Shown here: positions 6,753 to 28,500 of the stretch, one piece after another
Numbering within the stretch: position 1 is the first letter of the stretch
Layout: each line of letters starts with the position of its first letter
IMG/VR virus record: IMGVR_UViG_3300017697_000052
Span: 1-32,967 of that record
Source: a virus
DNA: 32,967 nucleotides
Reading direction: 5' to 3' (one strand)
Program-made: the position numbers and the translations under genes
The notes under the pieces: generated by a model
Databases searched by the model: none
What the model was told of the DNA's origin: nothing
The model's input: the letters and a program-made list of their open reading frames with translations, nothing else

Positions 6753-8195
6753 ATGGCAATTACGCAATCGGGAGCTAATAATCCTGGGGTTAACGCAACT
6801 CCCGCCCCAAATAAAGTAGCCGTAGCATCTAATTACTTAGATTTCGCTACAGCTGGACAAGCAAACTGGTCACAGCAGTTCCTACCAGATTTAATGGAAC
6901 AAGAAGCAGAGGCTTTTGGAAAAAGAACGATCTCTGGATTTTTAGCTCAAGTTGGAGCTGAAGAAGCAATGACTTCTGATCAAGTAATTTGGTCTGAGCA
7001 AGGTAGGTTACACCTAAAGTATGCTGGTAAAATCAATGGTGTAAGTTCATCTGTAGCTATTGATAATTTACCAACAGGTCATGCTCTTAGGGTCGGAGAT
7101 ACTGTAGTTATCAGTGGTAATGTTAGTGATTTAACTATTAAAGCTCATGTAACAACAATAGCTGCTAACGCAATTACAGTTGCTACTTATACAGCTGCTC
7201 ATTTAACTGGTGCTGGTTTTTCAACAGACAATGAAGATGTTGACATCTTTGTTTATGGTTCTGAATTTACTAAAGGTACTTCGGGAAGAGCAGAATCTAT
7301 CAGTCCTCAGTTCAAGTCATTCAGTAACAAACCTATTATTTTGAAAGATAAGTACCATGTAAATGGATCTGATACTTCTCAAATTGGATGGGTTGAAGTA
7401 ACTGGCGAAGCTGGACAATCAGGTTTTCTTTGGTATTTAAAAGCTGAAGGAGATACTAAGTCTAGATTTACTGATTACTTGGAAATGTCTATGATGGAAT
7501 CTGTTAAAAAATTAGCGAGCGGTGCTCACGCTAGCGCACCAGATGGTTCTGAAGGACTTTTTGCTGCTATTGAAGACAGGGGTATTCTTTCTAATGGTTT
7601 AGATTCTACTGCAGCAAATAACTTAGCTGAGTTTGATTTAGTACTTAAAGAACTAGATAAGCAAGGATCTATTGAAGAAAACATGCTTTATGTTAATAGA
7701 GATACAGCATTAAACATTGATGACATGCTTGCCGCTCAAAACTCTTATGGTTCTGGTGGTACTTCTTATGGAGTATTTAGTAACAGTGAGGATATGGCTT
7801 TGAATCTTGGTTTTTCAGGTTTCCGTAGAGGATCTTATGATTTTTATAAGTCTGATTGGAAATATTTAAATGACTCAATGACTCGAGGAAGTATTGATAC
7901 TCCTGCTGCGTCCGACAGTCCTGATGCTACTGGTAATACTACTCAAATTAGGGGTGTGTTAATTCCAGCTGGTGTTTCTTCTGTTTATGATGAGCAATTA
8001 GGTAAGAATCTTAAGCGTCCATTTCTACATGTTCGATACAGAGCTTCTCAAGCGGATGATCGCAGAATGAAGTCTTGGATTACTGGATCTGTTGGTGGAA
8101 ACATCACTTCGGATCTTGATGCTATGGAGGTACATTACCTTTCAGAAAGATGTTTAGTTGTACAAGGTGCTAACAACTTTGTAATGTTTAACTAA
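6753..8195 (+). CDS. Major capsid protein
   Basis: This 480-residue protein follows portal and scaffold and is followed by a terminator, the expected place for the main shell protein. Composition is balanced, without membrane segments or coiled coils. The region AEAFGKRTISGFLAQVGAEE (about 48-67) looks like an N-arm helix, and the C-terminal LHVRYRASQADDRRMKSWI region leads to the end NNFVMFN. Residues about 107-157 (LPTGHALRVGDTVVISGNV onward) form a Thr/Val/Ala-rich beta segment that resembles the small repeated beta module in two downstream structural proteins, so it may be an inserted surface domain. HK97 fold is expected from family knowledge but cannot be seen directly. The start is TTATGG after three AAAAATT repeats. 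Confidence 0.87.
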   Translation: MAITQSGANNPGVNATPAPNKVAVASNYLDFATAGQANWSQQFLPDLMEQEAEAFGKRTISGFLAQVGAEEAMTSDQVIWSEQGRLHLKYAGKINGVSSSVAIDNLPTGHALRVGDTVVISGNVSDLTIKAHVTTIAANAITVATYTAAHLTGAGFSTDNEDVDIFVYGSEFTKGTSGRAESISPQFKSFSNKPIILKDKYHVNGSDTSQIGWVEVTGEAGQSGFLWYLKAEGDTKSRFTDYLEMSMMESVKKLASGAHASAPDGSEGLFAAIEDRGILSNGLDSTAANNLAEFDLVLKELDKQGSIEENMLYVNRDTALNIDDMLAAQNSYGSGGTSYGVFSNSEDMALNLGFSGFRRGSYDFYKSDWKYLNDSMTRGSIDTPAASDSPDATGNTTQIRGVLIPAGVSSVYDEQLGKNLKRPFLHVRYRASQADDRRMKSWITGSVGGNITSDLDAMEVHYLSERCLVVQGANNFVMFN

Positions 8196-8209
8196 GCAAT
8201 TATATTTAT

Positions 8210-8243
8210 AATTACCCTTGTCTTATGGATGAGGGTAATTTTT
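8210..8243 (+). terminator. Intrinsic terminator after capsid gene
   Basis: Bases 8210-8222 pair with 8228-8240: outer arms AATTACCCT and AGGGTAATT match perfectly over 9 bp, and inner TGTC/GATG adds four pairs including two wobbles, leaving the loop TTATG. Five T residues follow (8239-8243). It starts 15 bases after the capsid stop. It probably stops or partly stops transcription, letting head mRNA exceed downstream mRNA. Confidence 0.8.
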
Positions 8244-8247
8244 ACAC

Positions 8248-8275
8248 TTATTATATTATATTATATTATATTATG
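8248..8275 (+). repeat. (TTATA)x4 leader ending in TTATG start
   Basis: TTA is followed by four perfect TTATA units (8251-8270) and TTATG (8271-8275), in which ATG at 8273 is the start of the next gene. It resembles the shorter tract before 5492. The 5-base period means copy-number slippage would change leader length but not the coding frame. Confidence 0.6.
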
Positions 8276-9022
8276 AAAACAAAAGAAAAAATTAAAACAA
8301 ATACTTGGGAAATAAAGCCAAGAACATACTTATTAAAAAATTTATCCCCAATTGCTTACATGCTTAAATCATCTGACATATATTGGTTTGATGAAGAAAA
8401 AGGTTATGAAAGAGAATTAAAATTAACCTCTAATCAAAAAACACCTTTTGTAGATGAATTTCAAGGTGATGCTAGGTTAGAGCATATAATATTTAGAGAT
8501 GGTTCTTTAGTAGTTCCTAAAAATAAACAGACACTTCAAAAGCTTTTATCTCTTTATCATCCCAAAAAAAATAAAACATATTACGAATTAGATGAAGTAA
8601 AAGAAGCTATTGACGAGCTAGAAGTAATGGAACTAGAAATAGAAGCTTTAAATGCTGCTAAAAATTTAGACGTAGAAATGGCAGAAGCTGTTATGCGTGT
8701 GGAATTAGGTTCTAAGGTGTCAGATATGACTTCTAAGGAGCTTAAAAGAGATTTATTACTATTTGCTAGGAATAACCCAGATTTGTTCTTAGAATTAGTT
8801 TCTGATGATAATGTTCAATTAAGAAACTTTGGTATTAAAGCTACTGAAGCAGGTATTGTAAAACTATCCGAAGATCAAAGAAATTTTACTTGGTCTAGTA
8901 ATGGAAGAAAAATTATGAATGTTCCATTTGATGAACATCCGTATTCTGCGTTAGCAGCTTTCTTCAAAACAGATGAGGGTATGGAAATATACTCTAATAT
9001 TGAGAAACGATTAAAGGATTAA
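8273..9022 (+). CDS. Conserved phage protein of unknown role, head-neck region
   Basis: I do not recognise a functional family. The ATG at 8225 in the same frame lies in the loop of a terminator and would add a low-complexity YYIILYYI leader coded by the TTATA repeats, so I take the ATG at 8273 (249 residues). The first ~90 residues look like a compact mixed domain, with FDEEKGYERELK and HIIFRDGSLVVPKNK. Residues about 100-140 are a charged helix (ELDEVKEAIDELEVMELEIE). The C-terminal half has VQLRNFGIKA and FTWSSNGRKIMNVPF followed by DEHPYSALAAFFKTDEG. The position between capsid and neck proteins suggests a head-completion, capsid-decoration or assembly role. It could equally be a non-structural helper. 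Confidence 0.7.
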   Translation: MKTKEKIKTNTWEIKPRTYLLKNLSPIAYMLKSSDIYWFDEEKGYERELKLTSNQKTPFVDEFQGDARLEHIIFRDGSLVVPKNKQTLQKLLSLYHPKKNKTYYELDEVKEAIDELEVMELEIEALNAAKNLDVEMAEAVMRVELGSKVSDMTSKELKRDLLLFARNNPDLFLELVSDDNVQLRNFGIKATEAGIVKLSEDQRNFTWSSNGRKIMNVPFDEHPYSALAAFFKTDEGMEIYSNIEKRLKD

Positions 9023-9034
9023 CATCCATGTAGA

Positions 9035-9064
9035 AGTTAGGTCATCTATGATGGTGACCTAACT
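9035..9064 (+). other. Perfect 10-bp hairpin without U-tract
   Basis: AGTTAGGTCA (9035-9044) pairs perfectly with TGACCTAACT (9055-9064) in the 60-base gap before the next gene; two further inner pairs (T-G, C-G) leave a six-base loop. The 3' flank is A-rich, so it is not a standard intrinsic terminator on the + strand. It may be an mRNA stabiliser or processing site, or a protein-binding inverted repeat. Confidence 0.6.
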
Positions 9065-9082
9065 AATACAAAATAAAAAATT

Positions 9083-10030
9083 ATGGCAATAAATATAGAT
9101 ACCGTATATCAAAGAGTATTGGCTATATCAAATAAAGAACAAAGAGGTTATATAACACCTCTTGAGTTTAATTTGATGGCTAACCAAGCTCAGCTTGATG
9201 TTTTTAATCAATACTTTTACGATTTAGGTCAATTTAAAAGATTACCTAAATATGACTTAGAATACTCGGATTCAGTTGCTTTTCTTGAAGAGAAAATGTC
9301 TATATTTGAAGTCTTTAGTCAAACACCTTTATCTATAACTAACAATATAATTAGACTTGATAGTACTGAGACCGGAACAGGTACAGTTGATGGAGCTACT
9401 TCAAGTTCAACTTCTGTTGTTTTAGATGCTATAACTAATAGCGTTTTGCCAGGTATGACTGTCACTGGCACAGGAGTTCCATCAGGAGTAAAAATAAACA
9501 CCGTTTCATTAAATACACCATCGGGTCACACAACGTTAAGTTTAACAGGATCAGCATCAATATCTGATAATGTCATTTTAACTTTTAAGTTTGATAATCC
9601 TGAAATATATAGATTAGGTAATGTTTATTATACTTTATCAGGAGTAGATTATGAGGTTGAAGAAATAACAAGAAAAGAATTAATACAATACAAGCTTTCA
9701 CCGTTAGCAGCACCAACAGTTAAAAGACCTGTTTTTATAAGAAATACTAACTCTGGTAATAGAATAGAAGTGTATCCAAACACCATATCATCTGATATAA
9801 CATATAATTATATAAGAAAACCAGCTGAAGTATCATGGGGTTATACTATTATAAATAATGAAACATTATATAATTCCAATACAGCTGTAGATTTTGAACT
9901 TCATGAGTCGGATGAAACTGTTTTAGTTATTAAGATATTGGCTTTAGCTGGTGTTATAATAAAAGATCCTAGTTTGTATCAAATATCTTCTCAAGAAGAA
10001 GTTAAAAATATTCAACAAGAAAAAGCATAA
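9083..10030 (+). CDS. Probable neck/adaptor (tail tubular A-like) protein with beta insert
   Basis: This 315-residue protein begins with an alpha-helical segment (IDTVYQRVLAISNKEQRGYI, then LEFNLMANQAQLDVFNQYF) that resembles the adaptor proteins joining portal and tail in podoviruses. Residues about 97-168 hold a Thr/Ser/Val-rich beta module (GTVDGATSSSTSVVLDA, PGMTVTGTGVPSG, ISDNVILTFKF) also found several times in the 2688-residue tail protein. After it the adaptor-like part resumes (RLGNVYYTLSGVDYEVEEI). The C-terminus LHESDETVLVIKILALAGVI is helical. The start is TTATGG after an A-rich leader without a Shine-Dalgarno motif. The next gene begins four bases after its stop. Tail tubular A-like function is inferred from position and helix pattern; the insert is directly visible. 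Confidence 0.6.
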   Translation: MAINIDTVYQRVLAISNKEQRGYITPLEFNLMANQAQLDVFNQYFYDLGQFKRLPKYDLEYSDSVAFLEEKMSIFEVFSQTPLSITNNIIRLDSTETGTGTVDGATSSSTSVVLDAITNSVLPGMTVTGTGVPSGVKINTVSLNTPSGHTTLSLTGSASISDNVILTFKFDNPEIYRLGNVYYTLSGVDYEVEEITRKELIQYKLSPLAAPTVKRPVFIRNTNSGNRIEVYPNTISSDITYNYIRKPAEVSWGYTIINNETLYNSNTAVDFELHESDETVLVIKILALAGVIIKDPSLYQISSQEEVKNIQQEKA

Positions 10031-10033
10031 TAA

Positions 10034-11170
10034 ATGGGACTACTAGGAACAACTACTCAAGAATCATACTACAACCAATCTCAAACGTTTACAGGTGATG
10101 GATCTACTACCGCATTTGTTCTTACCGATGCCTACTTCCCTGTTGTACCTGATTTAAAAACCGAGTTTGAAGTATTTATAAACAATATACTCATAAAGAG
10201 TAGTAATTATAATTACACTGCTAATAACGATACTTTAACTTTTACTACTTCAAACATAAACTCTGACGTACAAGCCACAAGCGGAGCTCCACTCAATGGT
10301 TATAGTATAATAGTTAGAGAAATAAGTGATACAGAGCAATATGGTTCTTATCAATTTATAAAAATAGAAGATATTATAAACAACTTTATGGTATCTTATG
10401 TTGGAGAAGATAAAATAATAGATAGAGTTAAAAAAGCTGATGTAGCTTTTCACGCTCAAAGAGCAATACAAGAGTTGAGTTATGATACATTTAAATCTAC
10501 TAAAGCTCAAGAAATAGAAGTACCACCTGCATTAACAATGGTGTTACCACAGGATTATGTTAACTATGTAAAACTTAGTTGGAAAGATTCTGGAGGTTTA
10601 GAAAAAATAATATATCCAACTAGAGACACTAGCAACCCAACGGCTTTGCTACAAGATTCAGATTATAAGTATTTATTTGATGCCGAGGGTAAATTACAAA
10701 GAGCATTTAATTCTGAAACATGGAATAGTTATTCAGCAGCAAACTCATCAGCAGATGAAACAAATGACACTATAGATCCAGAGTTTCTAAGTACTTACTC
10801 CGAAGGAAAAAGATACGGTATTCTACCAGAATACTCTCAATCAAACGGTACATTCTTTATTGATGAACAAAAAGGAAGTATATACTTTAGTTCTAACATA
10901 GTAGGTAAAGTTATAACAATGAAGTATATAAGTGACGGACTTGGTACAGACTCAGAAATGATAGTACATAAGTTTGCAGAAGAAGCCGCATACAAACACA
11001 TTGCTTACGCTGTTCTAGCTAGTAAGTCTAAAATCCCAGAATACATAGTAAATAGATTTAAGAAAGAAAGATTTGCATCTAAAAGAGTTGCAAAACTTAG
11101 ACTATCTAATTTAAAATCTAATGAGTTATCACTCATAATGAAAAATAAATCAAAGCAAATTAAACACTAA
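10034..11170 (+). CDS. Probable neck/tail structural protein
   Basis: This 378-residue protein opens with QTFTGDGSTTAFVLTD, a beta motif common at the N-termini of phage tail-attached proteins, and a beta-rich domain to about residue 110 (EVFINNILIKSSNYNYTANN). The rest is mixed: DVAFHAQRAIQELSYDTFKS near 135-154, then PPALTMVLPQDYVNYVKLSW, and a basic helical C-terminus (FKKERFASKRVAKLRLSNLK). The middle block with 'helix - P..L..PxDYVxYVKLSW' is of a kind seen in marine phage neck proteins encoded next to the stabilisation protein. It lies four bases after one neck-like gene and three bases before the giant tail gene, so it is probably a second connector ring. The exact ring is not decidable from sequence. 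Confidence 0.6.
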   Translation: MGLLGTTTQESYYNQSQTFTGDGSTTAFVLTDAYFPVVPDLKTEFEVFINNILIKSSNYNYTANNDTLTFTTSNINSDVQATSGAPLNGYSIIVREISDTEQYGSYQFIKIEDIINNFMVSYVGEDKIIDRVKKADVAFHAQRAIQELSYDTFKSTKAQEIEVPPALTMVLPQDYVNYVKLSWKDSGGLEKIIYPTRDTSNPTALLQDSDYKYLFDAEGKLQRAFNSETWNSYSAANSSADETNDTIDPEFLSTYSEGKRYGILPEYSQSNGTFFIDEQKGSIYFSSNIVGKVITMKYISDGLGTDSEMIVHKFAEEAAYKHIAYAVLASKSKIPEYIVNRFKKERFASKRVAKLRLSNLKSNELSLIMKNKSKQIKH

Positions 11171-11173
11171 AGT

Positions 11174-14100
11174 ATGCCAGAATTTAAGCATCATTTTCGT
11201 AGAGGTCGAATGAACAAAGACCTTGATGAGAGATTATTGCCTAATGGAGAGTATAGAGATGCTCAAAACGTGGAGATAGTTACATCTGAGGGATCTGACG
11301 TTGGATCTATACAAAATGTATTGGGTACGGTTTTAGGTAGAGGTAGATTATATGACGAAAGTACTCAGGTACTTACTGAGTGGTCTGCTGATTCTAATTT
11401 CTTTGATTTAATAAATCCAACATGTATTGGTTCTTTTGTTGATACTCAAAACGACAATATTTATTGGTTTATACATTATTCATTTTTAAATGATTCTAAA
11501 ATAGTAATAAATGGTAGTGCTATTATAGAGTATGATGATACTACTAAAGTAATTCAACCAATACTTGTTGATATAAATAATATACTAAAATTTAGCTCTA
11601 ACTACCTAATAACAGGTATAAACGTTATAGATGGATTGTTTTTTTGGACAGATAATCAAACAGAACCTAAGAGAATAAACATATCAAAGTTTAAAGAAGG
11701 TACTGTAGTAGGATCAGATCAATTTAAGGTACAAACAAAATATTTAGGAGCTACTGGTAGCGATTTTACTGAAAAAGATATAACAGTAATAAAGCTTTCA
11801 CCAAACATAAAACCTAAGTTAAATTTATCTGCTTCTAAAAGAACTGGTGTAGGAACAGGTAACCAACCTATAACAGTACAATCTCATAGTGAAAGCTTTA
11901 GAACAGCGGAGGGAGATGCGGGTGTTTCTAGACCTAACGGATATGATTTATTTTTAGTTTTTCCATTAGCTCCAAATTATAAAGATAGAGATATACTTAA
12001 ACTATCTTATACTGATAGCAATGCCCTAGAGGGTGATGTAAGTTATGAGATACTGGTTCAGGTTACTAAAGGTGAAAATTCTTTTAAGAAAACTTTTGTT
12101 AAAATACAATCAATACCAGATGAGGTTCCTTATGGCACAAATCTTCCATGGGAAGTTGTTTTACTTGAAGATGAGCCGTTATTTGAAGATAAGTTTGTAA
12201 GATTTTCTTATAGATGGAAGTATATAGATGGTGAATATTCAACATTTGCACCTTTTTCTAATATAGCTTTTCTTCCTTCTGATTTTGAATATAAATCTTC
12301 AGATGGTTACAATACTGGTATGATTAACACAGCTAGACAGATAGAGATACAAAGTTTAGAAACGCCTCCAGTTGGTGTTGTTGAGGTAGATTTATTATAT
12401 AAAGAATCCAACAATAACAATGTATATGTTGTAGATAGAATAAAAACTGAAGATTTATCTACAGAATTTCCGTACGAAATAAAAAGTGAAATAGTTGGTG
12501 ATGTTGTGGAGTCTAATCAGATGCTTAGACCGTGGGACAATGTTCCTTTAAGAGCTAAATCTCAAGAGATTAGTTCTAATAGAGTACTTTATGGTAACTA
12601 TACTCAAGGCTATGATATAGAAAATAATAGATTACCTGATATAAAAACAACACATAATTCAATAGATATAACAACCGTAGGAACACCGGAAAAATCTATA
12701 AAATCACAACGAACATATCAAGTAGGTGTTGTGTACTTAGATCCATATAGTCGAGAAACTCCTGTTTTCTCTAAAAAAGAAGCCGCAGTAACTATAAGTA
12801 AAGAATATGCTGATAAAGTAAATAGTCTAAGTTGTGAATTGAATAATAATGCACCTAATTTTGCAACACATTTCAAACATTTTGTAAAAGAAACATCCAG
12901 CGAGTACTATAATATTGCTTTAGATAGATATTATCTAGCTGAAGATGGTAATATATGGCTATCGTTTCCTTCTTCAGAAAGAAATAAAGTAAGTGAAGAA
13001 GATTACTTGATTTTAAAGAAAAAACACGATAAATCTGTATTTGTAAGTGTAGATAATGAAAGCCCAAATCCAAACGCTAAATATAAGATTTTAGATATAA
13101 AAAACGAAGTTCCAGAGTTTATTGCTACAGAGTTAAAGTCAAAAGCTTTAGCTACGGTAAAGTGTAGAGTAGATAACAATATTTTACTAAATGAACCTCT
13201 AGCTAAAGCTATATCCTTTCAGTTTTTAGGACCTACTGATGTTCAAAATCCAAGTTTTTATAATTCATTTTCTTCTGATGCTAAAATAGTAATAACAACT
13301 ATAGAAGCGGGTAACGATATTGGATCTACTAAAAGGTATAAATTATCTAAAGGTGGACCAACGGGTAAACAAGAAAGTAGCTTGGAAATATATGAAGTTA
13401 CTTTAACAGAATCTATAAGAGATATTGATAAAAATGTATTTGCAACATACAAAAACGATGATACTATTGACACATCATATCTAATAGATGGTTCTAATAA
13501 TGCTATTGATTTTAAAATTGAAGTTTTAGAAAAAGAAAGTATAAATAAAGCTCAATTTTTTGGTAGATTTTTTGCTAAAATAAATAGAGATGTTGTTTTT
13601 GATGAAAATATTATAGAAACATTTCCTGCAGCTACAACCGAGTATGCTTCCGTTAGAAATGTTAGTGTTATTAGTAATGCTACAAGTGACCCCGATGATG
13701 ATAAAAAAGACAGTGATGTTGATTGGTGCTGGACTGATACTAATCCAAGTAATCCTTACGATAAAAACTACGCAAATCACCCTGAACTTGGATCAAACAA
13801 ATTTACTGTTTATTTAGCTGGAGTTGATTTGCCTGGAGATAAAAGTGATAAGAATAATAAATTTGAAGATGTAGTAACACAACCTGTTTCTAAAGATCTA
13901 AGAACAACAGGTACCCTTATTCAATTTGAAAACGCTAATGGAAATAAAGGATCAGTATATAAAATAAAAAATAGTGAAGTAGCTACTGGATGGAGATCAA
14001 AAAAAGATAGTAGAAGAAAAAGAACTAGCGGTAGAAGAAGAGAATTTACAATTACTATAGAAAAAGTAACAAATGATATAACTAATAAAAATAAAAACTA

Positions 14101-17100
14101 CGATGATGGTTTTGATTATGATGTAACAGATACTACTTCCGAAAAAGGTAGAATATCTAAAATAAATATCATGAGAAGATTGGTTTCAACTGATTTTCTT
14201 GAAGAAAATGATATATCATCCGATAATCCAGCTATATTTGAAGTTGAGCCTAAAGAATCTATAGATTTAGACATATACAATGAAGTTGGTAGTGCTTTGC
14301 CTATAGTTAAAACTGGATTAAAAGTAACTGGTACAAATATAGCTGCTAACACAAAAGTTGACACATATAAGCTAGAGTCAGATGTTATTATATTAGATAC
14401 AAATACAACTGGTAGCATATCAGCTGGAACAGTATTAACTCTAACAGACCCTAAAGGTATTTATAGCTTTAAAATAAAAACTAGTGGTACGGTCTCCAGT
14501 GGAACAAAAGTAATAACTATAGCCGAAAGCCAAGTACATGGTCAACACCATCAATTAGATTTTTCAAATTGCTATAGCTTTGGTCAAGGAGTTGAATCTA
14601 ATAGACTTAGGGATGATTATAATGCTATAACTATAGACAAAGGACCAGTTGTATCTACCATTATTAATGAAAAATATAAGCAAGACGTGAAGCTAAATAC
14701 CATAATTTGGTCTGGTATATTTAATTCAACTGGTGGTGTTAATAAATTAAATGAATTTATTCAAGCTGAAAAAATAACAAAAGATTTAAATCCTGAATAT
14801 GGTAGTATTCAAAAACTGCATGTTAGAGACACTGATTTAATAGCTCTATGTGAAGATAAAGTTTTAAGAATATTAGCTAACAAGGATGCTTTATTCAATG
14901 CAGATGGAAATACAAACTTAACATCAACTAATAATGTATTAGGTCAAGCCATGCCTTTTGTTGGTGAGCATGGTATATCTAAAAACCCAGAATCATTTGT
15001 GTCGCACGCTTATAGGGTTTATTTTTCAGACAAAGCAAGAGGATCTGTTTTAAGGCTGTCTAGAGATGGTCTAACAGATATAGCTACTAAAGGTATGACA
15101 GATTGGTTTAATGACAACCTACCACTGTCTAATTCAATTGTAGGATCTTATAATCAAAAGAAAGGATCTTATAATTTAACATTAAACAACTACACACTTT
15201 GTTTTGACGAAAGAGTTGATGGTTGGACTAGTTTTAAATCATTCATACCTGAATCAGGTGTATCATTAAATAATGTTTATTACACATTTAAAAATGGATA
15301 TTTATATTCACACAATAATAAAAGAAGAAATTCATTTCATCAAACACTTGCTAAAGTTATTTCTACTAATAGTGGAAATAATAAGATAGTTAATATATCT
15401 AGTCAACCAAGTGTTGAAAATATAAATATTGGTGATTATTTGTTAAGTTCTGAAGTTGATAGTGATATAACCGTAACTTCAATAGTAATACCTTATGTTT
15501 CTACTGGTACTGTAAATGGTGCAACTAGCACAAGTGTTAATGTAGCTGTTGACGGTAATTCTGGTACTATATCTGTTAATGATATAGTTACCGGAACAGG
15601 TATAGCAAGTAATATAACTGTTAAAGTAGCATCCGTAACTGATCAAAACAATATAGTTTTAGATACAGCCTTGAGCCTGTCTAATGAAACAGTATTAAGT
15701 TTTACTGGTACATCGCCAAATAAAACTCTAGATACTGTTGTTACATTTTCTTCAGCGCCTGCATTGTCTAATAGCTCTAATATAGAATTCACTAAAACAT
15801 ACGACTCATCGGTTACCTTACTTATTAATGATGAACCATCTACTATAAAAGAGTATAAGACACTTTCTTATGAAGGTACAGATTCTAAAGCATATACATA
15901 TTCCGGTACAATATCTGTTGATGCTGCGGGTAATTCGCTAAGCTCTAACATAACGATAGCTGCTGGAACACCGTTATCTGATTTACAAAAATATAAATAT
16001 AATGCTAATCAAATAGCACAACTAACGGAATCTGTTGTTACTGGTTGGAGTAGCACATCCATAACCACAGACTCTCAAAGTGGTAGCGTTAAACTTTTTA
16101 AGAACAAAGAAGGTTTATGGAGTAATTCAATATCGGGTGATGCAACATCGGCATCAAATATAGATACTAGAGAATTATCTGTTCAGGGTTTAGGTGCGTT
16201 TTCAACTATAACAGGTGCAACCTCTCCTACTCAAGCTGAGTTAACGATATCTCTAGCTAACTCTACACCAAATCATAACACAGACATATCAGCAACTAAA
16301 ACAATAAATGGTCTAGCTAATGGCGCTAATATAAACAGTACTTATGGAACTTTAGATTTAATTATATATGCAACAATAGGGTATAGCTTAGATGCTTCAA
16401 ACTTTGCTTTTAGTAGTGCCTCAGGAGTTAGTGGTGCAGGAGTTAGTGGTATTTCATTTACTCAACATGGTATCAATGTAAAAGCCACTATAACATTTAG
16501 TGGGGTAATGCCATCTTCAGATGATGCGATGTTAATAACTATAACTGGAGAAGCAATCGCTAATACTTATACTGTAGATGGAACATACGACACTATTGAA
16601 GATAATACAACAACTGGATCTAGCGATAGTATTGCTTATTCTGGAAGCGGTGTTTATGATAAGAAAACTGTTGCTAATGCAAGCACAGATCCAGTAACAT
16701 ATACTAGTGTTCCAGAAGATGTATTCATAAAAACATTTACTGCAAATGCTAATCATTTTTTTTATACTAGACCAGTTGTTTTTATAGAAGAAGAAGATAG
16801 TAGTTCAGTTAGTGCTTATACTATAACATGTCCTTGGGCAATAACTACTGCCACTGTTAATGGAGCCGTAAACGGTACAAGTGTTACACTAGACGCTGGA
16901 CACTCAGGCATAGCCATTGGCATGGCAGTTACTGGGGTAGGTTTAGGTCAAAATTGTAGGGTTTCTTCTATAAGTTCTAATACATTAGTGTTAACATCAT
17001 CTAAGATAATACCAGATGGTGCCACATTAACCTTTACACCAACGTCTGTTACTTTTACAGTAAAGTATGTTTATGGTATAAATAATCCTAAATTTGATAA

Positions 17101-19240
17101 ATTAGTATTTACAGCTAAAGCTATTGAGGTATTTGACCCCGGTATATCAGAATTAACTTCTTTTGTTAGTGGTAATAAAACAATACTAAGTGGTGGAGAA
17201 AGTAGAACAATGGTAATACAAGGTTCAACTGGTTATGATGATGAAACAAATGCTACTTTTACTTTTTCAAACGAAGCATCAGGAACAGCTGTTACTTTTA
17301 CGGCAACCTCTGACAATACTACTGCAACAGCTACTTTTAGTGATTATGTTGGCACAGTAAGACCTGGAATGAGTGTTTCTGGAACAAATGTTCCTGCTGG
17401 TACGGTTGTTAGTTATGTTGTTGTAAATCCAACTACTAATTCTACGACAGTTCATGTTACACTTGCTAATGCTGTAACCTCTACTCCATCAGGAGTAATA
17501 ACATTCGCTGAATACTATAATAGTTCTAACTCTAGTTGGCAATCAACACCTTATATTATAACACTACCTGAAATAGGTAGATTATCTATAACAAAAGTTT
17601 ATAATCCAACAACATCAACTAGTTACTATAGATATTTTATTAGAGCTATTGATGCATTAGTTGGAACTCACACTAATTTATCATCTAGCTTTTCAGGTAA
17701 TGCTGTTTTAGATTCTAGTAACGACTTCGCTTTATGTGAGGTTAACCAATACGAAAAACCAACCATAAACATAAATGCAACCTCTAATATAGTTGATTCA
17801 ACAAGCGCTGCTATTAATATAAGAAACTTAGATAGTATAGTTACTGTAGGTACCGCTACAGCTAAGGTTAACGTTGTTGGAGGAACCAGCGCATCTACAG
17901 CGGTAGTTGTTGATAATAATATTGGAACTATACAGGCTGGATTTTTTGTAACAGGAACTGGAATTGTTGGAACGGTCACGGTTGAATCTTTATCTGACCA
18001 ACAAAATTTGGTTTTATCTTCTAATCAAACGATAGCAGATAATGTAGATTTAACATTTAGTGGAGCTGCTGCAAATTCTAAAACAATAATTCTCGCATCA
18101 GGCAACACAGAAATAAAAATTGGTATGTTAGTAACTGGTACTAACATATTAGCAAAAACTAGAGTTAAAAGTATAAGTGGTACAACTTTAACTATAGATC
18201 AAACACCAACCTTGGCACCATCAGATGAACTTAAATTTTTGGATAATGGTCGGTATGAAGCTTATGGTGAACCGAATTCTGGTTCAATATACTCTAAAAT
18301 ACCTTTTAAAGTAGTGGCGAGTGTTGGTGGATCAACAGAATTGTCTAAGCAAAGAGATATAAGTATAGAAGATGATTTTCAATACAGTGAAACAACACTT
18401 TTTGCTTCTTCAGTATCTAGTACTGTTGTTGGTTTTTCTAGTACAGTACCACAATCTATTGTTGTTGGCTCTATCATTACATCAAATAGTATAACATCTA
18501 GTTATTCTAATAATGTTATTACTGTTGCTGCTATAACATCTACAACGCAAATAACATTAGCTCTTGATGGTATAACTTTAAACGGTACAAATAGCCATGG
18601 TACAAGTACGGCTAGTAGCGTAAGTACGTATGTTACAGTAAATGATGAACTTACTTTTTCTGCTCCATACTCTTGGGATATTAGTTTAAGTAATTTAAGC
18701 GAAGCTATAACAGGTAGCAATAAAATATATACATTAACCGGTTTAATGTCAGTTGCTAGATATGGTAATCAAAATTTACCAATAGGTTTAAATCTAGATA
18801 ATATATTAGCTAGAACTAGTACTAGTGGTGGAAGTGGTGGATCCACAACAAACTATATATTTATAGAAAAAATATTTAGTACAAGTTATTATATTTCTAG
18901 CTTGGTAATGTATCCTAAGTCAGTTGCTGTAGGTACCACAGCAGGAACAGTTATAACTTTTACTGGTAGTGTTTTAGGCAACTGGTATGGTAATGCTATG
19001 AGTGGTATTAAAATGTATCTAGGATCTGCAACAGGGTTTAATGATGCAAGTGGTGGTAGTTTAACTTTTGGAGAAGCTGGAGATGTGCAAGCATCAATAA
19101 TATCTACATTAACTTTTGCTAACTCAAGTCCTACGACGACCGGTGGTACTTTTTCTTTTGATCTACAACTAGCTGCTACAGCTGCAGCGGGTCAAACTTT
19201 AACAATAGAGCCAAGAATATACTTACCAATTCAACCTTAA
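11174..19240 (+). CDS. Giant tail/stabilisation protein with repeat-rich C-terminal extension
   Basis: This is a 2688-residue virion protein. Its N-terminus carries the block GRMNKDLDERLLPNGEYRDA followed by QNVEIVTSEGSDVGSIQN, typical of 'stabilisation/tail tubular'-type proteins of marine podoviruses. A second conserved block lies around residues 1170-1310 (IQKLHVRDTDLIALCEDKVLRI, NADGNTNLTS, GEHGISKNPESF, YFSDKARGSVLRLSRDG). These parts probably build the head-proximal tail tube or nozzle. From about residue 1430 to the end the chain is Thr/Ser/Gly/Val-rich beta sequence with at least five copies of a ~60-residue module (see repeats) and no enzyme motif; it looks like an exposed fibre or adhesin. 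No separate tail fibre gene was found, so this region may bind the host. Start ATG at 11174 follows the previous stop by three bases. Confidence 0.78.
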   Translation: MPEFKHHFRRGRMNKDLDERLLPNGEYRDAQNVEIVTSEGSDVGSIQNVLGTVLGRGRLYDESTQVLTEWSADSNFFDLINPTCIGSFVDTQNDNIYWFIHYSFLNDSKIVINGSAIIEYDDTTKVIQPILVDINNILKFSSNYLITGINVIDGLFFWTDNQTEPKRINISKFKEGTVVGSDQFKVQTKYLGATGSDFTEKDITVIKLSPNIKPKLNLSASKRTGVGTGNQPITVQSHSESFRTAEGDAGVSRPNGYDLFLVFPLAPNYKDRDILKLSYTDSNALEGDVSYEILVQVTKGENSFKKTFVKIQSIPDEVPYGTNLPWEVVLLEDEPLFEDKFVRFSYRWKYIDGEYSTFAPFSNIAFLPSDFEYKSSDGYNTGMINTARQIEIQSLETPPVGVVEVDLLYKESNNNNVYVVDRIKTEDLSTEFPYEIKSEIVGDVVESNQMLRPWDNVPLRAKSQEISSNRVLYGNYTQGYDIENNRLPDIKTTHNSIDITTVGTPEKSIKSQRTYQVGVVYLDPYSRETPVFSKKEAAVTISKEYADKVNSLSCELNNNAPNFATHFKHFVKETSSEYYNIALDRYYLAEDGNIWLSFPSSERNKVSEEDYLILKKKHDKSVFVSVDNESPNPNAKYKILDIKNEVPEFIATELKSKALATVKCRVDNNILLNEPLAKAISFQFLGPTDVQNPSFYNSFSSDAKIVITTIEAGNDIGSTKRYKLSKGGPTGKQESSLEIYEVTLTESIRDIDKNVFATYKNDDTIDTSYLIDGSNNAIDFKIEVLEKESINKAQFFGRFFAKINRDVVFDENIIETFPAATTEYASVRNVSVISNATSDPDDDKKDSDVDWCWTDTNPSNPYDKNYANHPELGSNKFTVYLAGVDLPGDKSDKNNKFEDVVTQPVSKDLRTTGTLIQFENANGNKGSVYKIKNSEVATGWRSKKDSRRKRTSGRRREFTITIEKVTNDITNKNKNYDDGFDYDVTDTTSEKGRISKINIMRRLVSTDFLEENDISSDNPAIFEVEPKESIDLDIYNEVGSALPIVKTGLKVTGTNIAANTKVDTYKLESDVIILDTNTTGSISAGTVLTLTDPKGIYSFKIKTSGTVSSGTKVITIAESQVHGQHHQLDFSNCYSFGQGVESNRLRDDYNAITIDKGPVVSTIINEKYKQDVKLNTIIWSGIFNSTGGVNKLNEFIQAEKITKDLNPEYGSIQKLHVRDTDLIALCEDKVLRILANKDALFNADGNTNLTSTNNVLGQAMPFVGEHGISKNPESFVSHAYRVYFSDKARGSVLRLSRDGLTDIATKGMTDWFNDNLPLSNSIVGSYNQKKGSYNLTLNNYTLCFDERVDGWTSFKSFIPESGVSLNNVYYTFKNGYLYSHNNKRRNSFHQTLAKVISTNSGNNKIVNISSQPSVENINIGDYLLSSEVDSDITVTSIVIPYVSTGTVNGATSTSVNVAVDGNSGTISVNDIVTGTGIASNITVKVASVTDQNNIVLDTALSLSNETVLSFTGTSPNKTLDTVVTFSSAPALSNSSNIEFTKTYDSSVTLLINDEPSTIKEYKTLSYEGTDSKAYTYSGTISVDAAGNSLSSNITIAAGTPLSDLQKYKYNANQIAQLTESVVTGWSSTSITTDSQSGSVKLFKNKEGLWSNSISGDATSASNIDTRELSVQGLGAFSTITGATSPTQAELTISLANSTPNHNTDISATKTINGLANGANINSTYGTLDLIIYATIGYSLDASNFAFSSASGVSGAGVSGISFTQHGINVKATITFSGVMPSSDDAMLITITGEAIANTYTVDGTYDTIEDNTTTGSSDSIAYSGSGVYDKKTVANASTDPVTYTSVPEDVFIKTFTANANHFFYTRPVVFIEEEDSSSVSAYTITCPWAITTATVNGAVNGTSVTLDAGHSGIAIGMAVTGVGLGQNCRVSSISSNTLVLTSSKIIPDGATLTFTPTSVTFTVKYVYGINNPKFDKLVFTAKAIEVFDPGISELTSFVSGNKTILSGGESRTMVIQGSTGYDDETNATFTFSNEASGTAVTFTATSDNTTATATFSDYVGTVRPGMSVSGTNVPAGTVVSYVVVNPTTNSTTVHVTLANAVTSTPSGVITFAEYYNSSNSSWQSTPYIITLPEIGRLSITKVYNPTTSTSYYRYFIRAIDALVGTHTNLSSSFSGNAVLDSSNDFALCEVNQYEKPTININATSNIVDSTSAAINIRNLDSIVTVGTATAKVNVVGGTSASTAVVVDNNIGTIQAGFFVTGTGIVGTVTVESLSDQQNLVLSSNQTIADNVDLTFSGAAANSKTIILASGNTEIKIGMLVTGTNILAKTRVKSISGTTLTIDQTPTLAPSDELKFLDNGRYEAYGEPNSGSIYSKIPFKVVASVGGSTELSKQRDISIEDDFQYSETTLFASSVSSTVVGFSSTVPQSIVVGSIITSNSITSSYSNNVITVAAITSTTQITLALDGITLNGTNSHGTSTASSVSTYVTVNDELTFSAPYSWDISLSNLSEAITGSNKIYTLTGLMSVARYGNQNLPIGLNLDNILARTSTSGGSGGSTTNYIFIEKIFSTSYYISSLVMYPKSVAVGTTAGTVITFTGSVLGNWYGNAMSGIKMYLGSATGFNDASGGSLTFGEAGDVQASIISTLTFANSSPTTTGGTFSFDLQLAATAAAGQTLTIEPRIYLPIQP
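14289..14450 (+). repeat. Divergent copy of the virion beta module, inside the tail core
   Basis: Translated, this segment reads LPIVKTGLKVTGTNIAANTKV, then VIILDTNTTGSISAGTVLTL, the same 'GxxVTGTxIxxxTxV ... xIxLxxxxx...GxxLTLT' pattern as the modules at 15502 and beyond. It lies within the first half of the 2688-residue protein (about residues 1038-1092), away from the C-terminal array. Confidence 0.5.
15502..15710 (+). repeat. Virion beta module, C-terminal array copy 1
   Basis: The module (residues about 1443-1512) shows TVNGATSTSVNVAVDGNSGT, IVTGTGIASNITVKVASVTD, NNIVLDTALSLSNETVLSF. The pattern is 'V-x-GA-T..V.VD-..GTI..GD.VTGTGI...-TV..V.D..N.VLD..L....TVL.F'. It most resembles copies at 17864 and in the neck protein at 9379. 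Confidence 0.65.
16422..16450 (+). repeat. Short 15-base tandem repeat
   Basis: CAGGAGTTAGTGGT occurs at 16422-16435 and again at 16437-16450, a 15-base period coding SGVSGAGVSG in the tail protein. The period is a multiple of three, so loss or gain of a unit keeps the frame. Confidence 0.7.
16850..17044 (+). repeat. Virion beta module, copy 2
   Basis: Residues about 1892-1957 read ATVNGAVNGTSVTLDAGHSG, IAIGMAVTGVGLGQNCRVSS, NTLVLTSSKIIPDGATLTF. Same layout as copy 1, with the VTGxG turn and an alternating hydrophobic strand pattern. Confidence 0.6.
17325..17510 (+). repeat. Virion beta module, copy 3 (divergent)
   Basis: The segment contains VGTVRPGMSVSGTNVPAGTV, then TTVHVTLANAVTSTPSGVIT. 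The PGMSVSGTNVPAG core closely matches PGMTVTGTGVPSG in the neck protein encoded at 9083-10030. Confidence 0.6.
17864..18062 (+). repeat. Virion beta module, copy 4
   Basis: It reads KVNVVGGTSASTAVVVDNNI, GTIQAGFFVTGTGIVGTVTV, ESLSDQQNLVLSSNQTIADN and VDLTFSG, clearly homologous in layout to copy 1 (VASVTDQNNIVLDTALSLSN). Confidence 0.65.
18078..18240 (+). repeat. Virion beta module, copy 5
   Basis: Directly after copy 4, this shorter unit reads KTIILASGNTEIKIGMLVTG, TNILAKTRVKSISGTTLTID, then SDELKFL. It keeps the GMxVTGT core and the final acidic-hydrophobic strand. Confidence 0.6.
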
Positions 19241-19244
19241 TAAT

Positions 19245-19586
19245 ATGGCAGATTCAATTAACTTAGTATTTAGTAAAACAATAAACTCATCAATACAAGC
19301 TGGTGATACAGTATATAAATCTATCATAACAGGTGGAGTTTCTTCTGCACCTGTATTAATTGGTGAGTGTACAGCTATTAATTCAACAAGAGATACAGTT
19401 ACATGTAACATAAACGAATGGGAGGACAGACCGACTGATAGTGATTTTATTTTATTTACAAAAGATAATAAAGCTAACTTATCTTCGCTAAAAGGTTATT
19501 ATGCAGAAGTTGTTATGAAAAACAACTCTCATAAGCCTGTAGAGTTATATGCTGTTGGTTCTGAAGTTTCAATAAACAGTAAATAG
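19245..19586 (+). CDS. Small virion-associated protein of marine phage type
   Basis: This 113-residue soluble, beta-rich protein follows the giant tail gene by four bases. It has a short motif ECTAINSTRDTVTCNI in the middle and a C-terminal block GYYAEVVMKNNSHKPVELYA followed by VGSEVSINSK. I recall the GYYAEV-NNS-ELxAxxSE block from many marine phages, where it belongs to small structural proteins of unknown role. It may decorate the tail or sit at the tip of the preceding protein. It has no signal peptide, membrane segment or enzyme motif. The start is AATATGG without a Shine-Dalgarno motif. Confidence 0.65.
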   Translation: MADSINLVFSKTINSSIQAGDTVYKSIITGGVSSAPVLIGECTAINSTRDTVTCNINEWEDRPTDSDFILFTKDNKANLSSLKGYYAEVVMKNNSHKPVELYAVGSEVSINSK

Positions 19587-22505: not shown

Positions 22506-25500
22506 ATGGCAAAACAACAACTACTTGTTGACGATTCTGATCAAGTAACTCAAGATGCTTTAAATATAATTCCTGATGATTTGGTTTTTAAGCAAAGCCT
22601 TGATGAAACTTTACGTAGGTTTAGTAACACTAATTTGTTATATGAGAAAACAGATGAATTATTAAATCCTTCTCAAATAGTTAAAACAGATGCTCCTAGA
22701 AAAGAAACACCTCAATTTGATTTATCTGAGGAAGAGTATAAAGCTTTGCCAGAAGAAGAAGTTTTTGTAAGTGATGGATTAAATTATCCTGATATACAAT
22801 ATGATTTTGAAAAACCAAAACCAGATCCATTAATTAGTGATGCTGAAATAATATTAAAAAGAAATGATTTAGTAAAATTAGCTACTAAAAACTATATAAA
22901 AAGTAGAAGCTTAAATGACGAATCTGAGTTATCTCCTGAAGATAAGGCTAATATTATTGTCGAAGCTGAAAATCTGTTTAGACAAGAGCTAACATATGAT
23001 AATATATTAAAAAAAGCAGTTAAAAAAGCTAGAAATATTTCTGAAGAAGAAAAACAAAAACTAATAATAGCAGATTCTAGTATAAAAAAATACAAAGCAG
23101 ATACTAATTTTAAATTAGATTCTATTAATACCAGCATAGAAAATATTGATATTAAGTATGATTCTCTTATTAATAAATTAACACCTATAAATAAGGAAAT
23201 AAAAAACATAGAAAAAAAACAAACAGATTTAAAATCAAATATATCTAACTTATACAAACAATCAAAAGCTGAGTTAGAAGTAGTGAATTTAAATTTAAAA
23301 GAGTTAGATGAGCAAGGTAAATTAATAGTTAGCCAAGAATACGCTACAGAAGAAGTGCATAACGCTGCTGCAGAAAGTTTAAATCAAATAAATCTAGCTA
23401 TAAATGAAGGTGTTAAAAAAAGAGATTTAATAATAAATAGTCTTAAACAAAAAGAATCAGAAGTTGCTTTAGAATTTAATTCTTTAGCTGATTCAATAAA
23501 ATCAAACTTTAAAACTATAGGTGTAAACGAGGATGGAACAGAAATACCAAATTCTTTAATATATAATTTAAATAATTTATCATCAGAAAGAAAAGCAAGT
23601 ATAAAAGCTTTTAATGATATAATTTATAACAGTAACAAGTATAGCTTTGAAGACGAACTTGAAGTTACTCAACTATTAAAAGAACTAGATAAAGAATATA
23701 ACATAGGTACTCTTTTTGCTAAAGAACTTCTTACATCAACAGCTGAGTTGGCTGTAAACTTTGGGCTTGGTGTTAAAGCTTTTACATTTGACTTAGCTTT
23801 AAAAAATGACCCTTTATATAATGTTAAATCTCAGTTACTAGAAAAAGAATTAGATGACTTTTTTCAAGAAACCAAATCAGCTTTTAGACAACCTATAGCA
23901 TTTAGAGATATAGAAAATGCTTATGATTTTGCTGATTGGTTAGGTCATTTAACCTCTACACAAGCACCTCAATATGCTGTTTTATATGCCACTAGAGGTT
24001 TAAGCGGTATAAGAGCAGCTAAAGCATTATCAACCGCTACAAAAGCCCAACAGACAGCTCGAGCGGCAAAAATAGCGTCGGCTAACCTAGCTTCTAGACA
24101 CGCTGGATTATCATTTTTAAGTATGGGTTCTGCTGGTAGTACAATTAGATCAGCTAAGCAAGAAATTAGAAACGGTGCAGATTATAGTGATTTACAATTA
24201 TATACAGCTGCTGTTATTAGCTTTGGAGCTGAATATACTAGTGAATTATATACATCAAAACTAATTAGTGGAGAAACATTTAAAGCATTTAAAACCGACG
24301 CTTTTAAAAAAGGATTTGTAGGTTGGACTAAAAATAAATTCAAAGCTAATAATATGATAGCTGGTGGCTTAGACTTATCAGGTGAAGGTTTATCTGAAGT
24401 TTTTGCTGAGAGCATAGGTAGTAATTTTGTTGATAGATATATATACGGGAAAAAAGACGTTAGTTTATTTCGTAATATTGATGAAGCTTTTATTAGTGGT
24501 GTATTTATGGCTGGTGCTATCTATAAGATGCCAGCTATGGCTCACGATGCTATAAAAGGATTTGTACCAACAGATAACCTTAAGGTTTATAATAATAACA
24601 AAAAAGAAATTGAAAAATTATCTTTTAATATATCTAACAATGAATTAACAATTCAAGAAATAGAAATTGCAGAAAAAAGAATTTCTAAGTTAGTCATGGA
24701 AAACAACAATCTTGTTTCAGACGTAATTACGGTTATTGATGAAATGAGTAATGAAGATAAAAGAGCATTACTAGACGTAGAATTAGAATTAAATGAGGCT
24801 GAAGTAGAATTAGATGAAATATCTAATTTAGATAAAATAGATATCATTTCTTTAGATATTCAATCGAAGATTAAAACTAAGATAAAAGATCTTAAAGAAA
24901 AAAATAATCAAATAGCAATAAAATACTATAAACAATTAGGTAGTAATAAAGCTAAAATAATAAAAAATCAAGCAAAAAAAATATATGGTGACGAGGTTAT
25001 AGTTAGAAGCTCTGATAGCTTAGAAGACCTACAGAGACAAGTAGAGCTTGATTTAATAGAAGAATATACCTATGGCTTAGAAGAAGGAACAGAACCTTAT
25101 GACAAAGCAATTATTAAAGCTAAGTCAGAATCAGAAAAAAGAAGTATAGGTAAAGATGCTTTTATTACAAGCGTTGAGCAAGGTGCTAATAGAGGTAAAG
25201 ATATAATATATATAAATAATAGTCCTGAGTTAGTATCTATAAATGTTAATGCCGCTGCACATGAGTTTTTACATAAATTACTACAAGCTACTTTAAAAAG
25301 TAATCCATCAGCTGCAAGAAAAATATCTGTTAATCTAAAAAGTTATATTGATAAAATAGATAAATCATTGATAAATGATGAAAGTTTTTCTAAAAGACTA
25401 GAAAGTTATAGTAATTTTTATAAAGATAAGATTGATAATGTAAAAATAGAAAAAGAAATATTAGAAAAGTTAGAGTCAGCAGTTTATGCTCCAGTAATAA

Positions 25501-28500
25501 AAGAAAAAATAATAGAAGCTAAGAATAAAATAGCAAGTTTAAATTCAGATTTAGCCGAAGAAACAATGACATTGTTTTCTGATGCTTTAGCAAATAAAAA
25601 CATTAAGTATGAAGAAAATAGTTTTACAAAAGTAACTGATTCTGTTAGAAGAACATTTCAAGATCTTGGTTATAAAAAAATAAAATTTAATACTGGTGAA
25701 GATGTTTTTAATTTCATAAGAGACTACAACGATGCTATTAAGTCTGGTAACTTGGGCAGTGCTTTTATAAAAGTAGGAAAAGAGGGTGTTGAAGGAAAGC
25801 TTATAGATACGAAAAGAAAAACTACTAAAAAAACTAGCTCAATTAAATACAGTAAATCTTTTAAAGATAACGTTAAAAGAAAATTTAATAACGTATCTGA
25901 AAAAGAAGCATTGCCAGATAGAGATGTATGGCCATCTGAAAACAATGAAAGAAAAGGTAAGTTAGCACTAGAAATTGCAAAATTGTACGAGGGTACTTTA
26001 GTTAGTAGCTTAAGACCTGGTCAGTTTGAAATATTAAGAAAAGAAGGACTTGTTGAGGAGTTTAAAGAAGATGCTAAAACTAATTTATCAATACATATAC
26101 TTAATTTTAATTCAGATAAAAACGATAACATACATGGTTGGATTAACTCTCAAGTAGCTAACAAAGCACAAGATGCAATTAAAGGTCTTGGTATAGAATT
26201 AGAAACACTTCCATTAGGTGAAACTGAAAAACAAATACCTGAACAACAGAGTGAAATAACAACACAGGAAAGACAAGAAGAAGAAAAAGCTTTACAAAAT
26301 ACAACATTAAAGCAAAACATATCTGTAACCGCTAAGTCAGAAACAATGACAGAGTTAAGGAGTATAGTTGGTGGTGTTTTAAATGACTTAAACATAGGTG
26401 CTAGAGAGGTTGATTCTACAAATAAAGTTAGTGACTTTGTAGCTATATTAAAAGAAAGAATACAAGGTAAAAAACCTGGTACAGCTTTTAAATTATTAAG
26501 AAAAGCTTTTAAGGTAGGTAATTCTACCATGCCTCAATACAGAGATAACTTAATAAAAAATAAAGAAGCAATACTAAAAGGTTTAACGACTAGTTATTTA
26601 TCAAGAGCTTTTCCACCTGCTATAGAAAAAAGAATTATAACTGAAGATGGTGGTACTAAGTTTGTTAAATCTGAAGAGTGGTTAAAGATACCTAAAAAAA
26701 ATATAGGTAAAAAACCTGGTTTTATAGACATAAGAAGTACTAAAGAAGAAGGTTATGAGGGTGATACTACTGGTAAGCAAGCCATGCGTAGAGTTGAAAA
26801 CATATCAGAAACTATATCTGATGAGGTTTTTCTAGCTAAGTACATAGTAAATAACAAAGTACCTCAAATGCCATCAGAGATGTTAATGCAACAGCTTGCT
26901 GGTGAAATTGGTTTAGATATATTTCAAGAAGAAATAAATAAGTTTGATGAGTTTAATGATGCTTTAGAAAAAGCTGTTTTAAAAGGTGAATCTGTAGAAG
27001 AAATAATTAATAGTGACAGATTTAAAATAATTAGCTCTTTCGTAGATAATCAAAAATTATTAAAAAATGTAATTATAGAATCTACTATATCAAACTTAAC
27101 AAAGCAACTAGAAAGAGGTACAACAAAGTATTCTATGTTTAGTGATAGTGATATCACTAAGTTAAACTTATTCTTTAATGAAACCGCAGAAATAATAAAT
27201 CAAAAAGACAAATCTCAAAGAAAAATAGATTTTTATAATCTACTAAATGATCAAGATGAATTTATTAAAGATTTCTACAAGCAAGTAGTAAGCGAAGGTT
27301 CTATGATAAAAGACAATAGAGCTTTTGGAACAGTTGTTGAAATAGAAAATAATTTAAAGTTTAAGATTGCAGTTCAAGAAAGTGAAGTTGATATAAACAT
27401 TAATAATGAAGTTTCTTCTTCCAATAGTGTTAAGGGAGATATATTTTTTAATGTAGATGGTAATAAAGATGAAGTTAAGATAATAGAGTCTAAAAGTTCT
27501 TTTTTTGATGAATTTAGTGGAGCAACGGCTGGTATAAAATCAAACGGTTATCTTGGTATTAATGCACCTAAATATTTAAAGCAAGGTACTTGGGTTGAAG
27601 AAGCACTTAAGGAAATGGGATCACCATCAGATAAACAAGGTGTGCCTTACACTAAAAAACAACAATTATCTGATAAACTTCAAAAACAATTAGATGAAAT
27701 TATAGAACAAAAAGAGTTTGAATATTTTAAAGAAAACAATAAAATAGCTGATATAATAAATAATATTTTAATTAACGTTAATTCTTCTATAAATGAATTT
27801 ATAGAAGAGTATAACAATGCTGCATCAAAAATACTAACACCTGAACAATACAAAAATCATAAAAAAACATCTTTAAAAAGAGAACAATTTATATATGATA
27901 TAGTAGAAAACGATAAAAATGTAAAAAAAGCATTAAGTAAAATAAGCAAATTAGGCGTATTTAAACCAGAAGGAAATACAGAATTATTTAATGCCGTAGA
28001 GCAATTGTATGTTAACGCTGGAGTTGATACTATAGTAATAAACAATATATTATATGCTTTAAAAGATGGAATTGATGGTTTGCAAAGAATAAGCATTGGT
28101 AAAAATGGAAATCATATTTCTCCTGGTTTAAACTTTCAGTTATATTTAAAAAGAGCAGGAGGTGGTCCTAATGTAACAAAAATAAATGGTAAGAATAATA
28201 AAGTTTATGAATTAAGAAGTTACAGCATATCAACAATATTCAAAATACCATCAAAAGATATTAAAATATTAAAAGAAAAAGAAAAAATTAATACTAATAA
28301 TATACAGAGTGCAGAAGTAGCTCAAAAATTATATAATCATTATTCAGTAAAAAATTCTTTAACTCAAGATGTACCAATGGATCCATCTTTTGTTAACGCT
28401 AACTTTGCTAATAAAAAAGCTATAATAGTAGTTGGTGGTATTGGCTCAGGTAAAACAACTATAATAAACAAAATAATTGATAAGTTAAATCTTAAGGAAT

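Follow-up and report, generated by a model that had tools for sequence, protein, structure and literature searches.

The window, the whole stretch of DNA analysed here (32,967 bases, a complete virus record), carries genes for terminase, portal, capsid, two ring-type neck proteins and a 2688-residue muzzle protein, in this order, followed by tail and cargo genes whose labels are partly inferred. One of the neck proteins (9083-10030, plus strand, as are all coordinates below for the rings, muzzle and capsid) matches phrog_14543, and a profile of 24 of its homologues that lack the module described below matches ring protein 4/5 of phicrAss001, gp34 (7qoj_E), at E 0.007, for which reason we call it ring protein A and regard it as a remote homologue of gp34. 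Ring protein B (10034-11170) matches phrog_13977, and the muzzle (11174-19240) matches phrog_14478 at E 6e-127 and, weakly and below cutoff, Pfam crAss_MUZ_C; the PDB gave no credible match for ring protein B and none at E up to 1 for the muzzle. The terminase is closest to that of a Manatee Spring record (63%), with elemo Flavobacterium phages at 45% and Cellulophaga phi13:2 at 38%; Bayfield et al. use phi13:2 as the outgroup when they compare crassviruses (PMC10172136). With homologues of terminase, portal, ring and muzzle in order, as judged from the PHROG matches and the gp34 match, the window appears to represent a marine crassvirus-like phage. A separate 2856-residue protein (22506-31076) contains, at residues 1967-2093, a domain resembling zeta-toxin/AAA-type P-loop kinases (Pfam E 2e-12).

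Ring protein A and the muzzle share a domain of ~65-75 residues, hereafter the module, with one copy in the former and six in the latter. All seven lie where the original prediction, made from the sequence alone, had placed them, and each was found by a leave-one-out HMM built from the other six (7/7, 13.7-54.6 bits, E-values down to 7e-18). When the 18 proteins of the window were compared with the module profile, matches listed at E<1e-3 fell solely in ring protein A and the muzzle. Structure prediction for a single copy, that of ring protein A, from an alignment of 44 copies gave a confident domain of six beta strands (AlphaFold2, pLDDT 94.3). No Pfam family reached its cutoff against the 44 copies and none was listed with E below 0.002; the endosialidase beta-barrel family PF12195 weakly matched 1 of the 44 (0.016), and the top PDB match of one copy, also weak, was the phi92 endosialidase 4hiz (E 0.14). 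Sequence searches thus gave no credible solved homologue, and matches to haemagglutinin (E 0.15-1) were taken as chance. Structural comparison with the module model was middling (best Z 8.5; nothing at E <=0.001 in Foldseek), the best matches being portions of tail proteins, phage lyases or tailspikes. Against annotated phages, the copy of ring protein A hit 29 Synechococcus phage records at E 0.2-0.3, mostly annotated as tail fibres, and a copy from a related locus (L015:9780-9986) had no match at E 0.1. A search of predicted viral protein structures (best E 2.3e-3, TM up to 0.84) listed the fold in proteins of cyanophages S-PM2 and P-HM1, in tail-collar proteins and in one HK97-type capsid protein, so the module may be a widespread virion domain.

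The capsid protein was also expected to hold a weaker copy (7069-7220). This we do not find: the capsid scored -0.3 bits with the seven-copy profile and -0.6 bits with the 44-copy profile, where the top ten of 2000 shuffles scored 8-13 bits; the best of 89 capsid homologues reached 5.3 bits with the latter; and profile-profile alignment (hhalign) gave the pair a probability of 1-7%. The segment (7005-7295) is instead a fixed part of the capsid protein, present in the homologues listed in the 89-sequence alignment, with six strands in the AlphaFold2 model (pLDDT 85.7). Its position agrees with that of the I-domain of the phicrAss001 capsid protein, residues 79-180 (PMC10172136), and we assign it accordingly. 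The module model does resemble I-domains in structure (7qof residues 81-178, Z 5.7, 2.7 A over 69 residues; P22 coat 8i1v residues 227-346, Z 5.9, 2.4 A over 68 residues); such Z values are common, and the tail tube 9n71 and ATPase barrels match both module and I-domain. The likeness may therefore be one of fold class, possibly just a common arrangement, and gives no evidence of common descent. At the level of sequence, the capsid segment is a case of chance similarity between Thr/Val/Gly-rich beta sequences. For the seven copies the same explanation is ruled out for practical purposes by the leave-one-out E-values, the confident fold and the clean insertion boundaries described below.

In ring protein A the module (9377-9598, 48.1 bits in the leave-one-out search) lies between two conserved stretches, as it does in the related loci L003 and L004. 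It is also present in L002, L005 and L006, and is missing from L007, L042, L070 and L015. Ring protein A of L007 (72% identity in the best segment) has a clean, in-frame empty site with no remnant of the module. A second insertion site in the same protein holds a module in L023, L029, L106 and L119. Five of the 65 rows of the ring protein A tree carry a module, one starred clade per site: one unites the three site-1 rows and has L007 as the nearest branch outside it, and the other unites the two site-2 rows (L106 and L119 were retrieved as module carriers and lie outside this tree). Ring protein A of L037 (5299-6720) contains a large insert that weakly matches a galactose-binding-like turret domain (E 0.005, below cutoff).

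In the muzzle, one copy (14228-14455, 23.4 bits) occupies a conserved position, marked by the motif PAIFExEPKES, and is found there likewise in L003, L007, L017, L030 and L070. The copies at 16847-17047 (36.4 bits), 17291-17518 (13.7 bits, the weakest of the seven) and 18047-18250 (39.8 bits) have positional orthologues in L003 and L007. Two others are lineage-specific. The copy at 17864-18070 (54.6 bits) stands in tandem before the next one and is missing from L003, L007 and L070; that at 15503-15715 is missing from L003 and L007 and sits in the loop of an older module, an eighth copy, overlooked by the original prediction and split into halves at ~15371-15484 and 15731-15802. Both L003 and L007 have the older module unbroken (23-27 bits). 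When its halves in the window are joined they reach 9.7 bits, a value surpassed by 1 of 2000 shuffles, so that its recognition there rests mainly on position. On a larger scale (region 11174-19586), the start of phrog_18548 aligns with muzzle residues 1341-1391 and its end with gene 19245, and L085 has a single frame matching both the muzzle and that gene; an insertion into an older gene may have given the muzzle its long C-terminal part.

Ring protein B has no module in the window, where the loop concerned is empty (10679-10711). In relatives this loop carries modules, a CBM_4_9-like domain or other domains: among 52 distinct measurable sequences (10 more, without the landmark motifs, were left out), 31 had no long insert, 10 had modules and 11 had other inserts. 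Pfam searches with five proteins of the last group (L071, L049, L044, L089 and L036) returned CBM_4_9 for one, a weak match to a cyclase family for one and nothing for three. The CBM_4_9 match, in the insert of L071, had E 1.5e-4, slightly short of the curated cutoff, and none of the other scanned ring A/B proteins with such inserts (0/5) scored above cutoff against any carbohydrate-binding family. The N-terminus of ring protein B holds a domain of another type (10082-10333), with the motif FTGDGST, which is 38% identical (E 1e-13) to residues 1441-1534 of the L070 muzzle and there occupies the loop where the window has the nested module. This is a second mobile type of domain, one that moves between ring protein B and the muzzle.

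These observations bear on whether the inserts matter at all. Loops that tolerate any foldable insert could collect modules as neutral hitch-hikers with no selected function, and the varying copy number and the insertion within an older module would suit that explanation. Against it, the copies in ring protein A keep an open frame at 74-91% identity between relatives, and within the operon inserts turn up repeatedly in a small number of tail proteins. We regard neutrality as improbable.

We then compared the copies across genomes. An iterated profile search, of the kind that the original prediction had proposed for the phage and its relatives, covered the window together with 93 viral loci and a single phage record and gave 63 copies in 34 reading frames from 29 sources; the count takes in near-duplicates, as L002 repeats the window's own ring match, and L005 and L006 repeat the matches of L004. 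By gene, 36 copies are in muzzles, 18 in ring protein B, 8 in ring protein A and 1 in an unlabelled frame. Within the window, copies in one gene are no more alike than copies in different genes, as had been observed (mean identity 27% for the 15 muzzle-muzzle pairs and 30% for the 6 ring-muzzle pairs). In a tree of 110 copies (63 columns, many forks open), five of the window copies group with their positional counterparts in L003, L004 or L007. The remaining two group elsewhere, the 15503 copy with proteins of L103 and L114 (SH-aLRT 96) and the 17864 copy with a set of such proteins (SH-aLRT 95). Of six proteins scanned from these groups, phrog_5107 (labelled amidase) is matched by five and virion structural families by the remaining one, from which we partly infer that they are phage tail proteins. 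The two copies are 70% identical to proteins of other phages, 63-67% to bacterial copies and at most 44% to the window's own copies. Their closest matches at the DNA level are 62-72%, so the exchange was not recent. Gene labels cluster on the tree (14 changes, compared with 58 in shuffles), as expected from inheritance by position.

Duplication inside this genome is another conceivable source, as a single gene holds six copies and two of these are neighbours. In AU tests (34 chosen rows, simpler model), however, a single clade was rejected both for the seven window copies (p-AU 1.7e-64) and for the six muzzle copies (1.4e-42), and the nearest relatives are in other genomes. The data were compatible with the 15503 and 17864 copies being sisters (p 0.37), and for that pair a single import with later copying inside the gene could be the explanation; as the origin of the copies in general, duplication is very unlikely. 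Since five copies were inherited by position and two are nearest to other phages and bacteria, exchange has proceeded through a wider pool, comprising phage tail proteins and surface proteins of marine Bacteroidota, rather than mainly by shuffling among the phage's own genes. The proposed exchange of a module between virion genes thus stands in part: one module is found in different virion genes and was gained by insertion, as seen from the empty site of L007 and the two muzzle copies missing in L003 and L007, but the capsid does not take part and own-gene shuffling was not the main route. That the module is inserted and exchanged we hold with high confidence.

The bacterial part of this pool came from a scan of genome contigs, which found four bacterial loci, all labelled as Flammeovirgaceae or Cyclobacteriaceae MAGs, with 5-6 copies in giant proteins; the adjoining genes include ones that we read as recognisable housekeeping genes. 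Type IX secretion system (T9SS) sorting domains occur in the L131 protein and in L132; L130 has one as well, in a frame that overlaps the module gene region at its end. SprB repeats and a CHU_C domain are present in L134, and a SusD-family protein (L133:5427-7172) has a module copy near residues 345-397. In bacteria the module is rare (2 of 295 other genomes drawn from the phylum and 1 of 77 others from the family). The giant gene of L130 (318-10144) appears as three overlapping frames in the MAG, perhaps through an assembly error. Matches to RimM inside bacterial modules covered 26-39 residues only and were taken as chance or shared barrel sequence.

Taken together, the results show the module to be an accessory domain inserted into loops of the ring proteins of the tail barrel and of the muzzle at the tail tip. 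The insert-tolerant loops act as sockets, which over time gain, lose, stack or nest the module and in relatives take other domains instead, the modules being drawn from a pool common to tail proteins of other phages and giant surface proteins of marine Bacteroidota. Facing outwards, as we predict, they could make weak, many-copy contacts with glycans or proteins of the host surface before DNA ejection. In phicrAss001 the muzzle is at the tail tip, gp34 forms the rings nearest to it, and insertions in the muzzle are said to affect surface properties (PMC10172136). We favour outward contact because of this position, the alternative occupants of the loops and the counterparts in surface proteins. 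Surface binding is plausible, as the module shares a loop with a CBM_4_9-like domain and its bacterial copies are in T9SS-type and SusD proteins; that the module might itself be a carbohydrate-binding one is hinted at only by the CBM_4_9-like occupant in L071. The middling fold matches, the CBM_4_9 score short of its cutoff, the rarity of the module in bacteria and the compatibility of the two lineage-specific copies with a sister pair tell against this interpretation. We give the whole reading, exposed and interchangeable contact domains on a crassvirus-like tail, a probability of about 0.6, and consider the chances of a binding role taken by itself to be evenly balanced.

The modules could instead be structural, lengthening or stiffening the tail barrel and muzzle as spacers or clamps that bind nothing outside. 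The muzzle copy whose position is conserved across several relatives would agree with this, as would the capsid I-domain, which may share the module's broad fold class and serves capsid assembly and stability (PMC10172136). Patchy presence in close relatives and unrelated domains in the same loops suit a socket better than a strut, and we consider the structural role unlikely, though less so than neutrality. Within the contact-domain reading, a bolder version is that the phage bears the adhesive module of its prey's own T9SS/SprB-type proteins and settles through module-module or shared-ligand contact, its sockets being refilled from prey adhesins; this is speculative and we doubt it.

The results show that ring proteins, which lie deep in the structure of crassvirus-like tails, have loops open to interchangeable domains, so that such tails can diversify elsewhere than in their fibres. 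The narrow set of surface proteins holding the bacterial copies makes host prediction and a binding test possible, and the nested insertion and empty sites are ordered, testable events.

Several known systems invite comparison. The I-domains of phicrAss001 and P22 may be of a similar fold class; unlike the module, they are fixed parts of the capsid, and no link in sequence to the module was detectable. The small capsid chain 8eci_1, a decoration protein of Arthrobacter phage Bridgette, matches the module model (Z 7.4, 2.2 A over 67 residues, 31% identity); it is a separate small chain, absent from the module's sequence-search matches. Ig-like domains on virions are promiscuous accessory domains, found on several structural proteins and thought to aid surface contact. 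The module is likewise an accessory domain on several structural proteins, but it is predicted as a six-stranded beta domain, and no Ig sandwiches were among its best structural matches listed; of the Ig-like and Big models in Pfam, Big_1 touched 1 of 44 copies (0.028) and a GBS104-like Ig model 1 of 44 (0.0022). Immunoglobulin domains of phages are mentioned by de Jonge 2019 (PMC6949934), which describes BACON domains transferred singly and horizontally between crAss-like phages and Bacteroidota. The module resembles BACON repeats in being a small beta domain of crAss-like tail-associated proteins, common to Bacteroidota, that spreads partly by horizontal movement of single domains. It differs in belonging to another family (1 of 44 copies touches the BACON model PF13004, at E 0.024) and in entering conserved ring proteins besides the muzzle, at definable empty sites. 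Domain shuffling is also described for receptor-binding and neck proteins of phages (Smug 2023, PMC10684548); the module resembles those cases as a domain exchanged in proteins linked to host contact, and goes beyond them in its insertions against empty sites, its nesting, its bacterial counterpart and its lack of a Pfam family. We recognised no earlier description of the module in a literature judged mostly by titles and the beginnings of abstracts. Transfer of the BACON type (PMC6949934) and shuffling of neck proteins (PMC10684548) are already known; as far as our searches show, the domain itself, the socket loops of the ring proteins, the nesting and the sharing with bacterial surface proteins are new.
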